32,596 bases of DNA from Candidatus Nanopelagicales bacterium (GTDB lineage: Bacteria > Actinomycetota > Actinomycetes > S36-B12 > GCA-2699445). The notes under the pieces are model-generated. The model saw only the letters and a list, made by a program, of their open reading frames with translations, ran no database searches and had not been told where the DNA came from. Below, in pieces: positions 1-3,055 of this stretch. The translations under genes and the position numbers were made by a program. Location: positions 1-32,596 of the forward strand of contig JAUYJT010000058.1 of NCBI GenBank assembly GCA_030700225.1. The letters run 5' to 3'. The first letter of the stretch is position 1, and the number at the start of each line of letters is the position of its first letter.

Positions 1-441
1 CAGTTCATCCTTGGACGGTAGGAACCAGTCATTCTTCCCGCCACCGGCGTGGTTCTTCGCCGCCCACGCCGCCGGAGCCTTCTCCGGTGTGTCACACGCG
101 GTATTACTGGTTATCGCGGTCGTGTTCGCCTCCCCCGTACCAATCGCCGTATCAGTCGCAATACTGGTAGACGCGCACGCACCGGTCCCCCACGCCAAGC
201 GCGGGTCCTTGCCGTCGTCGTACCAGCCGCGTGGTGCGGCCTCGTAGCACACTCCCTTCGCTGCGTCGTGGTAGAAAATCGTCCCTCCACCCGGGCCGGG
301 TTCGCCCACTACACACGCTGGGGCCGATGTGGTGGACGTCGTGGCGACGTCGCGTGCTGGTTCGGTCTGGCTGGAGCACGCGGCCATTACGAGAGCGATG
401 CTGGCGGCGAGTGCCGCGATTCCTGTTGCCTTCAGACGCAT
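1..441 (-). CDS. Lipoprotein of the DUF1566/Lcl family, copy 1 (partial, C-terminus off the window)
   Basis: Open frame from an ATG at 441 to the left edge, 147 codons visible. The N-terminus is a lipoprotein signal peptide with lipobox MAAC (Cys22), then a Thr/Ser/Pro linker, then the GEPGPGGGTIFY motif seen at the start of DUF1566/Lcl-type domains and the WFLPSKDEL motif of the C-terminal domain. It is closely similar to the three complete copies to its right, so the missing part should hold the YWSSSQ motif, the variable segment and a C-terminal RVRPVRAF, roughly 60 codons beyond the edge. It has the same promoter block and palindrome as the others. Predicted role: a secreted, lipid-anchored binding protein. 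The family assignment rests on motif recognition; the ligand is unknown. Confidence 0.85.
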   Translation of the reverse strand, partial: MRLKATGIAALAASIALVMAACSSQTEPARDVATTSTTSAPACVVGEPGPGGGTIFYHDAAKGVCYEAAPRGWYDDGKDPRLAWGTGACASTSIATDTAIGTGEANTTAITSNTACDTPEKAPAAWAAKNHAGGGKNDWFLPSKDEL

Positions 442-749: not shown

Positions 750-1382
750 CTAGAAAGCCCGGACTGGCCGAACCCGGTAGGTGAAGAACTTGCTGTCGAA
801 GTTCTGGTCGCCATTGACGAAGACCTGGAACCGCGCGAAGCGCGCAACGAACTGCGACGACGACCAGTAGCGGTCAACGACGGTGAACCCGCCAACAGTG
901 GTTTTCTGTGCGTACAACTGATTCAGTTCATCCTCGGACGGCAGGAACCAGTCGTTCAAGCCGCCGCCTGCGTAGTTCTTAGCCGCCCACGCTGCCGGAG
1001 CCTTCTTCGGTGTATCACACGCGGTATTACTGGTGATCGCGGTCGTGTTCGCCTTCCCCGTACCAATCGCCATCCCAGTCGCGCCAGGAATATCCTGGTT
1101 GCTGCACGTACCCGCGGCTCCCCCACCGGTCCCCCACGCCAAGTTCTGGTCCTCGCCGCCGTACCAGCCGCTTGGTGCGGCCTCGAAACACTCGCCCCCC
1201 GCTGCGTCGTGGTAGAAAATCGTCCCTCCACCCGGGCCTGGTTCGCCCACTACACACGCTGGGGGCGACGTGGTGGGCGTCGTCGCGACGTCGCGTGCTG
1301 GTTCGGTCTGGCTGGAGCACGCGGCCAGTACGAGAGCGATGCTGGCGGCGAGCGCCGCGATTCCTGTCAGCTTCAATCGCAT
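750..1382 (-). CDS. Lipoprotein of the DUF1566/Lcl family with DGR-like variable C-terminus, copy 2
   Basis: 210 aa. Signal peptide with lipobox LAAC (Cys22), a short Thr/Ser/Pro linker (about 23-42), GEPGPGGGTIFY, CFEAAPSGW, a middle segment rich in Thr/Asn/Gly, NDWFLPSEDELNQLYAQ, YWSSSQ, a variable segment of about 25 residues and a fixed RVRPVRAF end. In DUF1566/Lcl-type proteins this part adopts a C-type-lectin-like fold. The protein should be exported, lipidated and displayed on the cell surface. Codons after SSSQ vary against the other copies at positions 1 and 2 but not 3, the mark of a DGR target. The middle segment (GGGAAGTCSNQDIPGATG region) differs in length from copies 3 and 4. 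Ligand unknown. ATG chosen because signal peptide and promoter block fit it. Confidence 0.88.
   Translation of the reverse strand: MRLKLTGIAALAASIALVLAACSSQTEPARDVATTPTTSPPACVVGEPGPGGGTIFYHDAAGGECFEAAPSGWYGGEDQNLAWGTGGGAAGTCSNQDIPGATGMAIGTGKANTTAITSNTACDTPKKAPAAWAAKNYAGGGLNDWFLPSEDELNQLYAQKTTVGGFTVVDRYWSSSQFVARFARFQVFVNGDQNFDSKFFTYRVRPVRAF
777..851 (-). repeat. DGR-type variable region (VR), copy 2
   Basis: 25 codons between SSSQ and RVRPVRAF. Against the VR of copy 4 there are 23 base differences, none at a third codon position; against copy 3 there are 25, one at a third position. Columns whose codons lack A at positions 1-2 (GCG, GCG, GGC) are invariant. Variation may extend upstream to about 884. 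Confidence 0.78.
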
Positions 1383-1614
1383 ACGCGCAGTGTCTCAGCG
1401 GTCACTCTGTGACGCAACCCTTCAGCATGCCTCAGCTTCATTGAGCGCGCGGGCTCCTGTGGGGGTCGGCGCGTCGCCTTCAACCTGTCAAGAAGGGCGC
1501 CCACGGAAACGACCGGAAAGCCAAGAAGTTCGCGGCCGCCCTACCAGCGGCCCCCGAAACCGAAGAACGAAGAACAAGTGATGAATGGCTGAATCGCTAA
1601 AAAGCCCGGACCGG
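1383..1614. repeat. Near-identical spacer repeat, first copy
   Basis: This block (spacer of copies 2 and 3 plus the last codons of copy 3) matches 2212-2443 with only about four single-base differences that I can count in the 214-base spacer. It holds the tail of the upstream gene, its 3' flank and the promoter of the next gene. It is better conserved than the coding parts on either side, suggesting recent duplication or gene conversion. Confidence 0.85.
1389..1417 (-). promoter_or_regulatory. Candidate leaderless promoter with 13-bp palindrome, lipoprotein copy 2
   Basis: TTGCGT (1417-1412), 17-bp spacer, GACACT (1394-1389), 6 nt to the ATG at 1382. The palindrome GTCAC-AGA-GTGAC lies at 1401-1413. 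Identical spacing to the other copies. Confidence 0.5.
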
Positions 1615-2211
1615 GCGCACGCGGAGGGTGAGGCCCTTGTAGTCGCTGATCTGGCCGCCAGCGCCGAGGTTCTGCCACCACGCGTAGCTCGCACCGTTCT
1701 GCGACGAGGACCAGACGAGGACTCCGGCGAACCCGCCAACAGTGGTTTTCTGTGCGTACAACTGATTCAGTTCATCCTTGGACGGTAGGAACCAGTCACT
1801 CCTCCCGCCACCGGCGTAGTTCTTAGCCGCCCACGCCGCCGGAGCCTTCTTCGGTGTATCACACGCGGTATTTCTGGTGATCGCGGTCGTGTTCGCCTCC
1901 CCGTCACCAATCGCCGTACCAGTCGCAATACTGATAGACGCGCACTTATTGGTCGTCCCCCACGCCAAGCTCGGGTCGCTGCCGCCGCCGTTCCAGCCAC
2001 TTGGCGCGGCCTCGAAGCACAGTCCCGTCGCTGCGTCGCGGTAGAAAATCGTCCCTCCACCCGGGCCGGGTTCGCCCACTACACACGCTGATGCCGACGT
2101 GGTGGGCGTCGTCGCGACGTCACGTGCTGGTTCGGTCTGGCTGGAGCACGCGGCCATTACGAGAGCGATGCTGGCGGCGAGTGCCCCGATTCCTGTTAGC
2201 TTCAATCGCAT
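1597..2211 (-). CDS. Lipoprotein of the DUF1566/Lcl family with DGR-like variable C-terminus, copy 3
   Basis: 204 aa, same architecture as its neighbours: lipobox MAAC (Cys22), Thr-rich linker, GEPGPGGGTIFYRDA, CFEAAPSGWNGGGSDPSLAWG, ANTTAITRNTACDTPKKAPAAW, SDWFLPSKDELNQLYAQ, VWSSSQ, a variable segment and RVRPVRAF. The N-terminal half is nearly identical to copies 1 and 2 and the middle is very close to copy 4. Only the segment after SSSQ is strongly different. The usual Tyr before WSSS is Val here, so the codons just upstream of WSSS may also be diversified. Expected location is the outer face of the cytoplasmic membrane or cell envelope. No catalytic residues are apparent; a binding role is inferred. 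Confidence 0.88.
   Translation of the reverse strand: MRLKLTGIGALAASIALVMAACSSQTEPARDVATTPTTSASACVVGEPGPGGGTIFYRDAATGLCFEAAPSGWNGGGSDPSLAWGTTNKCASISIATGTAIGDGEANTTAITRNTACDTPKKAPAAWAAKNYAGGGRSDWFLPSKDELNQLYAQKTTVGGFAGVLVWSSSQNGASYAWWQNLGAGGQISDYKGLTLRVRPVRAF
1624..1698 (-). repeat. DGR-type variable region (VR), copy 3
   Basis: 25 codons; 26 base differences from copy 4, only one at a third position (TGG against GGC in column 8). Many residues (N, G, S, Y, D, L, T) are those reachable from AAC/AAT by changing A. The segment may begin upstream at about 1728. Confidence 0.78.
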
Positions 2212-2443
2212 ACGCGCAGTGTCTCAGCGGTCACTCTGTGACGCAACCCTTCAGCGTGCCTCAGCTTCATTGAGCGCGCGGGCTCCTGTGGGGGTCGGCG
2301 CGTCGCCTTCAACCTGTCAAGAAGGGCGCCCACGGAAACGACCGGAGAGCCAAGAAGTTCGCGGCCGCCCTACGAGCGGCCCCCGAAACCGAAGAACGAA
2401 GAACAAGTGATGAATGGTTGAATCGCTAAAAAGCCCGGACCGG
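2212..2443. repeat. Near-identical spacer repeat, second copy
   Basis: Counterpart of 1383-1614. It links the end of copy 4 to the promoter of copy 3. It includes a GC-rich segment next to the stop codon (minus strand CCGGTCCGGGCTTTTTAG) that is the best candidate for the fixed 3' end (IMH-like) of the variable region. Confidence 0.85.
2218..2246 (-). promoter_or_regulatory. Candidate leaderless promoter with 13-bp palindrome, lipoprotein copy 3
   Basis: TTGCGT (2246-2241), 17 bp, GACACT (2223-2218), 6 nt to the ATG at 2211; palindrome at 2230-2242. Confidence 0.5.
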
Positions 2444-3055
2444 CCGCACACGGCCGGCGTAGCCCTGGCTGACGACGTTCAGGGCGCCACCGACGAAGCC
2501 CTGGCCCCACGCGTTGCGCGCACTGGCCTGCGACGAGGACCAGTAGCTGCCACCGGCGAACCCGCCAACAGTGGCTTCCTGTGCGTACAACTGATTCAGT
2601 TCATCCTTGGACGGTAGGAACCAGTCACTCTTCCCGCCACCGGCGTAGTTCTTCGCCGCCCACGCCGCCGGAGCCTTCGCCGCTGTGTCACACGCGGTAC
2701 TACTGGTGATCGCGGTCGTGTTCGCCTCCCCGTCACCAATCGCCGTACCAGTCGCAAAACTGGTAGACGCGCACTTACCGGTCGTCCCCCACGCCAAGCT
2801 CGGGTCGCTGCCGCCGCCGTTCCAGCCACTTGGCGCGGCCTCGAAACACCGCGATCCCGCTGGACGATTCATGTCCTTGTAGAAGATGCTGCCGCCACCA
2901 GGACCGGTGTCACCCACCCGAAGCGACGAACACGCCGACTCCGCAGGCCCGCCGGCCTCTCGGAGAGGTTCGGTGTCGGTCGGCGGGGAGCACGCACCCA
3001 GCGCCAAGGCCACACCAACACCAAACGCCGCGATTCCTGTAAACCTCAATCGCAT
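2426..3055 (-). CDS. Lipoprotein of the DUF1566/Lcl family with DGR-like variable C-terminus, copy 4
   Basis: 209 aa, the most diverged N-terminus of the array: lipobox LGAC (Cys21-22 region), linker PPTDTEPLREAGGPAESACS, then GDTGPGGGSIFYKDMNRPAG, CFEAAPSGWNGGGSDPSLAWG, SDWFLPSKDELNQLYAQ, YWSSSQ, the variable segment and RVRPVRAF. It is the promoter-proximal member of the minus-strand array. From CFEAAPSGW to SSSQ it is almost the same as copy 3, which makes the abrupt divergence after SSSQ stand out. Its spacer to yajQ is a divergent promoter region. Likely a surface-anchored binding protein; the substrate is unknown. Confidence 0.87.
   Translation of the reverse strand: MRLRFTGIAAFGVGVALALGACSPPTDTEPLREAGGPAESACSSLRVGDTGPGGGSIFYKDMNRPAGSRCFEAAPSGWNGGGSDPSLAWGTTGKCASTSFATGTAIGDGEANTTAITSSTACDTAAKAPAAWAAKNYAGGGKSDWFLPSKDELNQLYAQEATVGGFAGGSYWSSSQASARNAWGQGFVGGALNVVSQGYAGRVRPVRAF
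2453..2527 (-). repeat. DGR-type variable region (VR), copy 4
   Basis: 25 codons between SSSQ and RVRPVRAF. Third bases match copies 2 and 3 in all columns except one (where copy 3 differs), including two columns that keep T in all three copies. First and second bases vary freely. Confidence 0.78.

Follow-up and report, generated by a model that had tools for sequence, protein, structure and literature searches.

The closest precedent for the array described here is the diversity-generating retroelement (DGR) of Treponema denticola, in which one template serves two to seven targets per strain, namely TvpA and as many as six remote ones. Many of these targets are lipoproteins, and some strains retain genes with a variable region (VR) after loss of the reverse transcriptase (RT) and the template repeat (TR) (PMC4891356). 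DUF1566 targets and several VRs per template are common among DGRs (PMC6642488), and in DGR variable proteins with a C-type-lectin fold the variable residues make up a solvent-exposed binding site (PMC6328139). A lipoprotein target that is diversified and has been shown on the cell surface is known from the DGR of Legionella pneumophila, as far as the work of Arambula 2013 is summarised in PMC8867640. According to the same summary, that system has a complete and apparently active core.

The window analysed here, a stretch of 32,596 nucleotides, is the entire contig C58 of a 2.6-Mb genome (G000; 85 contigs, 95.7% complete). Four lipoprotein genes lie side by side on its minus strand, and they are almost certainly remote variable-protein targets of a DGR, with VRs written by that element. 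As in T. denticola, there are several lipoprotein targets, and VR genes are found without an intact RT and TR. However, the T. denticola targets are listed at separate chromosomal positions, whereas four are present here in one tandem array; moreover, the genome belongs to another phylum and a relic of the RT is still visible. Multi-target lipoprotein DGRs and targets that outlive their core are therefore already known from T. denticola, and it is the state of the core that is unusual here. The L. pneumophila DGR is similar in diversifying a lipoprotein target, surface display being probable in the present case, but host and membrane architecture differ, within what the summary covers. The sequence-only reading had held that three or four targets in one tandem array, as lipoproteins, would be unusual in an actinomycete. 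Lipoprotein targets are not unusual in general (Legionella, Treponema), although the RT clade is indeed rare in the class (3 of 395 genomes in a class-wide sample, the relic of G000 included). The DGRs of L060-L063, G514, G014 and G070 resemble the present one in their Lcl-type targets and in the RT clade (a relic here), and have a bAvd accessory protein and an A-rich template. In these relatives the target is followed by Avd, TR and RT in one cassette, whereas no Avd, TR or intact RT accompanies the targets seen in G000. In an actinobacterial lineage, the locus offers a clear example of a probable surface repertoire that a retroelement wrote in several gene copies and whose writing apparatus is now broken or missing.

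Lipoprotein array and variable regions

The features of the window are listed below. Changes in the VR cores are counted against the G514 template over 25 codons, which comprise 37 template-A and 38 non-A positions.

1-441, minus strand: copy 1, a lipoprotein gene of this family with only its 5' part present, truncated by the contig end
750-1382, minus strand: copy 2, lipoprotein of 210 aa with lipobox LAAC and an Lcl_C-type domain (Pfam Lcl_C, 32.2 bits)
750-776 and 1597-1623, minus strand: RVRPVRAF protein tail of copies 2 and 3, the same as in copy 4
777-851, minus strand: copy 2 VR core, 25 codons (24/37 template-A and 1/38 non-A positions changed)
867-884, minus strand: upstream continuation of the copy 2 variable stretch, ACC GTC GTT GAC CGC TAC, one codon more than in copies 3 and 4
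1501-1596, minus strand: non-coding stretch 3' of copy 3, conserved with the DNA downstream of the G014 DGR target; small GC-rich hairpin
1597-2211, minus strand: copy 3, lipoprotein of 204 aa with lipobox MAAC and an Lcl_C domain (36.1 bits)
1624-1698, minus strand: copy 3 VR core, 25 codons (22/37 A, 2/38 non-A); the variable stretch resumes at 1714-1728
2330-2425, minus strand: non-coding stretch 3' of copy 4, with conserved counterparts at copy 3, C75b and the G014 DGR target; small GC-rich hairpin
2426-2452, minus strand: invariant GC-rich 3' tail of copy 4, RVRPVRAF plus stop, at the position of the initiation-of-mutagenic-homing (IMH) site
2426-3055, minus strand: copy 4, lipoprotein of 209 aa with lipobox LGAC and an Lcl_C domain with C-type-lectin-like fold (38.5 bits; AlphaFold2 model)
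2453-2527, minus strand: copy 4 VR core, 25 codons (28/37 A, 0/38 non-A); the variable stretch resumes at 2543-2557

Copies 2 to 4 have the signal peptide and lipobox cysteine (residue 22; LAAC, MAAC or LGAC, read by eye) of bacterial lipoproteins, and their products are probably displayed at the cell surface. The gathering cut-off of Pfam Lcl_C (PF07603, 34.9 bits) is passed by copies 4 and 3, and copy 2 falls slightly below it. When copy 4 is modelled with AlphaFold2 (mean pLDDT 74, with low values for signal peptide and linker), the top PDB match is 8q4e, the C-terminal domain of Legionella Lcl (E 6e-7), which is the best match to the targets by sequence as well as by fold. The model also matches C-type lectins, including those of snakes, weakly. 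A scaffold typical of DGR targets (C-type-lectin-like, DUF1566) is thus present, and by analogy with other variable proteins of this fold the variable residues presumably form a ligand-binding patch. The Legionella Lcl adhesin shares the Lcl_C/DUF1566 domain with the window proteins (copies 3 and 4 above the Pfam cut-off). It bears a collagen-like stalk, whereas the window proteins are short lipoproteins with a variable patch.

In copies 2 to 4, 21 of the 25 VR codons differ, the fixed ones being GCG, GCG, CAG and GGC. Pairwise base differences number 25 (copies 2/3), 23 (2/4) and 26 (3/4), or 74 in all, with two at third codon positions. Coordinates and counts alike are identical, on the minus strand, to those that had been read from the sequence alone. 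Two columns in which the third base is always T had also been pointed out, and every one of the six alignable copies in G000 has T there, as no other VR column does. The variable stretch takes in a further 5-6 codons on the upstream side of the fixed WSSSQ block, reaching positions 884, 1728 and 2557, and the extra codon in copy 2 may stem from a second template that differs slightly. When full-length copies are compared, third-base differences affect 0-2 of the 25 VR codons and 22-58 of about 170 codons in the rest of the gene. Because third-base differences are few inside and many outside, the VRs are younger than the gene duplications, having been rewritten after them, and they derive from one template or very similar ones.

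The invariant GC-rich tail at the IMH position, a putative homing site, is distinct from the tail of the relatives' templates (GCTTTT in the VRs, GGTTTT in the TRs). The conserved non-coding DNA downstream of copies 3 and 4 is a possible cis element of homing. Its hairpins (that of copy 3 at +45 to +63 past the stop) do not rise above shuffled controls in either copy, despite the conservation of sequence, so a role for them as a homing element is not claimed. The downstream DNA of copies 3 and 4 is conserved in G014, which belongs to another family (L049:7842-7950).

Additional VR genes are found on three other contigs of G000: one on C29, two on C75 and one on C55. Two of these loci have the following coordinates.

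C29, 10118-10429: 3' part of copy 1 with its VR, completing copy 1 outside the window
C55, 4378-5634: target in which Listeria-Bacteroides (InlB-type) repeats are followed, as a fusion, by an Lcl domain with a VR-like end; truncated at the contig end

The start of C58 and the ends of C29 and C75 have 141 identical bases in common. The genes of C29, which include rplA, rplK and nusG (identified by reading), are directly upstream of the YajQ/kor (ferredoxin-oxidoreductase) genes of the window in G002, G003 and G006, all of the same family, and partly so in G004. By family-level synteny and the 141-bp overlap, C29 most likely adjoins the window on its left side, and copy 1 ends with the VR on C29. 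The proposal that copy 1 is a fourth target is borne out by this placement left of position 1. Around the four-gene array no RT is found within about 10 kb to the left and 29 kb to the right. C75 carries a second array, adjoining purM (by reading), with its outer end open. In the search for the missing core, no end overlap was found that would join C75 to C73, its expected neighbour; the 5' half of C75b and all DNA between C75 and C73 are missing from the assembly.

Templates and cassettes in related genomes

Complete cassettes in the order target-Avd-TR-RT are present in G014, L060 and L061, and the same cassette is interrupted by contig ends in G514, L062 and L063. A scan of named genomes turned up the same RT in four MAGs of lake Actinobacteria, L060-L063. 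At the G014 locus an Lcl-type target stands together with an RT, an A-rich template and Avd, the last of which matches Pfam bAvd and PHROG 'Avd protein of DGR'. The TR/VR pair of this locus was picked out by a location-blind script (13 A changes, 1 other). The RTs of these relatives carry the DGR motif GLPIGNLSSQ as well as YVDD, and the bAvd and RT family assignments are confirmed in them. In a tree that also holds sequences of Bacteroidota, Pseudomonadota and others, the RTs from Actinobacteria fall into a single clade (SH-aLRT 100). The RT of G514, which is of the same class as G000, is 89% identical to that of L063, a named actinobacterial MAG, by which G000 would likewise belong to the Actinomycetota. 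The templates of L061-L063 and G514 are exactly 25 codons long, and in L061-L063 they lie between WSSSE and the tail. The codons AAC AAT GCG AGC AAC GCG, predicted for the template from the window alone, are present literally at the start of the G014 TR (AACAATGCGAGCAACGCG).

Every template used as a predictor comes from a genome other than G000. The best-fitting one is that of G514. Against it, copy 1 is changed at 21/37 adenines and 0/38 non-A positions, and the range per copy is 21-28/37 A changes and 0-3/38 non-A changes. As a control, register offsets of one to three codons raise the number of non-A mismatches to 20-27. When the L063 template is used for prediction, 30/37 A columns vary among copies 2 to 4, compared with 3/38 non-A columns (Fisher p = 4e-11), so that three columns vary even though the template lacks A there. 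With all six copies, the corresponding figures are 33/37 and 7/38 (p = 3e-10). Both templates agree with the window VRs at almost all non-A positions. At the 3' ends of the genes, the VRs thus depart from foreign templates nearly only at template adenines, the pattern of DGR targets. The view that the tandem lipoproteins carry DGR variable regions, with the retroelement outside the window, gains support from both the templates and the cassettes of relatives. Orphan VRs can, moreover, be recognised via a template from a different family.

By this mechanism a DGR RT would have copied an A-rich template of about 115 bp, inserting random bases at template A, and the cDNA would have been substituted for the 3' portion of each target, adjoining the unchanged GC-rich tail. 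The products would be lipoproteins with an Lcl_C, C-type-lectin-like domain and a variable patch presumed to bind ligands. One template, or very similar ones, would have served no fewer than six targets, which form two arrays: copies 1-4, spread over the window and C29, and a pair on C75. The target on C55, the seventh, belongs to a decayed cassette. The core was probably active until recently.

State of the core

In the incomplete assembly of G000 (2.6 Mb, 95.7% complete, 85 contigs), no intact DGR RT was found, and pattern and DNA searches for a template repeat gave VRs only. An RT or an A-rich template had been expected somewhere in the genome; what is present is a broken RT on C55, with neither an intact enzyme nor a template. 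This RT is reduced to four collinear fragments just downstream of the Lcl target, corresponding in protein alignments to RT residues of about 56-112, 153-169, 262-291 and 370-396. The fragments have 78-90% DNA identity to G014, the largest being 57 aa at 88% identity. The stretches holding the catalytic motifs IGNLSSQ and YVDD are deleted, and neither Avd nor a template is present at the C55 locus in the interval that separates target and relic.

Within the DGR explanation, the chances are slightly better than even that the core has been lost: the RT would have decayed on C55, template and Avd would have been deleted, and the array would be a frozen repertoire that evolves as ordinary genes. 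The relic without catalytic motifs, the absence of Avd and TR beside it and the lack of a template elsewhere in the assembly all point this way, and a precedent exists in T. denticola, some strains of which have VR genes but neither RT nor TR (PMC4891356). Target homologues are, furthermore, present in 39/166 genomes of the order, compared with 4/166 for the RT, a count that includes the relic of G000 itself and one distant phage-type RT. These frequencies make the gain and loss of DGR cores testable. However, the VR on C55 is one codon longer than those of the window, so the relic may have belonged to a different template, and the C75 array contig has an open end beside an unassembled gap. 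The window VRs also have so few non-A changes (0-3/38) that a loss would need to be recent.

The same low non-A divergence is what would be expected if an intact core (RT, Avd and TR) lay in an unassembled or unbinned piece, most likely beside C75b, and served all arrays in trans. This falls somewhat short of an even chance. The 141 bp shared by C58, C29 and C75 are an assembly-graph junction, and the absence of the 5' half of C75b and of the C75-C73 interval leaves a place for such a core. Nevertheless, none is seen in an assembly that is 95.7% complete, and the RT clade is rare (3/395 genomes of the class).

A broader arrangement, in which Lcl arrays are stable chromosomal residents while a small core (Avd-TR-RT) with a nearly identical template moves between lineages, is rather unlikely, but if true the core of one lineage could rewrite arrays left by another. 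Very improbable indeed is an origin with no retroelement at all, by positive selection or paralogue recombination on a binding loop with C or G third bases due to codon bias: the genes do mostly use C- or G-ending codons, so that third-base agreement is partly expected, but codon bias is no explanation because it also acts on the rest of the gene, where third bases do differ, and because third-base T is held in precisely those two columns that have T in the G514 template, while the variable positions are predicted by the adenines of a template that is non-coding and lies in other genomes.

Distribution and neighbouring genes

A DGR in G111 was considered as a model and rejected, as it lies among phage-tail-like genes and its RT is distant (32%). 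RT matches in G004, G006, G033, G041 and G045 have no DGR motif and appear by eye to be group II, retron-like or eukaryotic-type. In G000 the only intact RVT_1 match has a GIIM domain and matches TIGR04416, and was set aside as a group II intron reverse transcriptase/maturase, which lies at a contig end (C19:1-1392). Viral contigs gave no template match and a single distant RT (37%), thus no phage link is apparent. A literature search for DGRs in Acidimicrobiia found none.

Lcl genes whose ends resemble VRs of a similar template are seen in several genomes where no RT of the clade was detected, for example L173 (G111), L202 (G037) and L193 (G091). Orphan VRs may thus be common in the order.

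A tRNA-Tyr gene (G000:C29:9753-9835) adjoins the left edge of the lipoprotein array, and is a possible insertion point. Lipoproteins that share the signal peptide and linker of the targets are encoded elsewhere in G000, at C52:65150-66881, C60:29660-30256, C22:929-1438, C56:163-687, C69:12826-13665 and C1:18147-19001. In most of these, pentapeptide repeats replace the Lcl domain, and the C60 member keeps the linker with a different C-terminal part.
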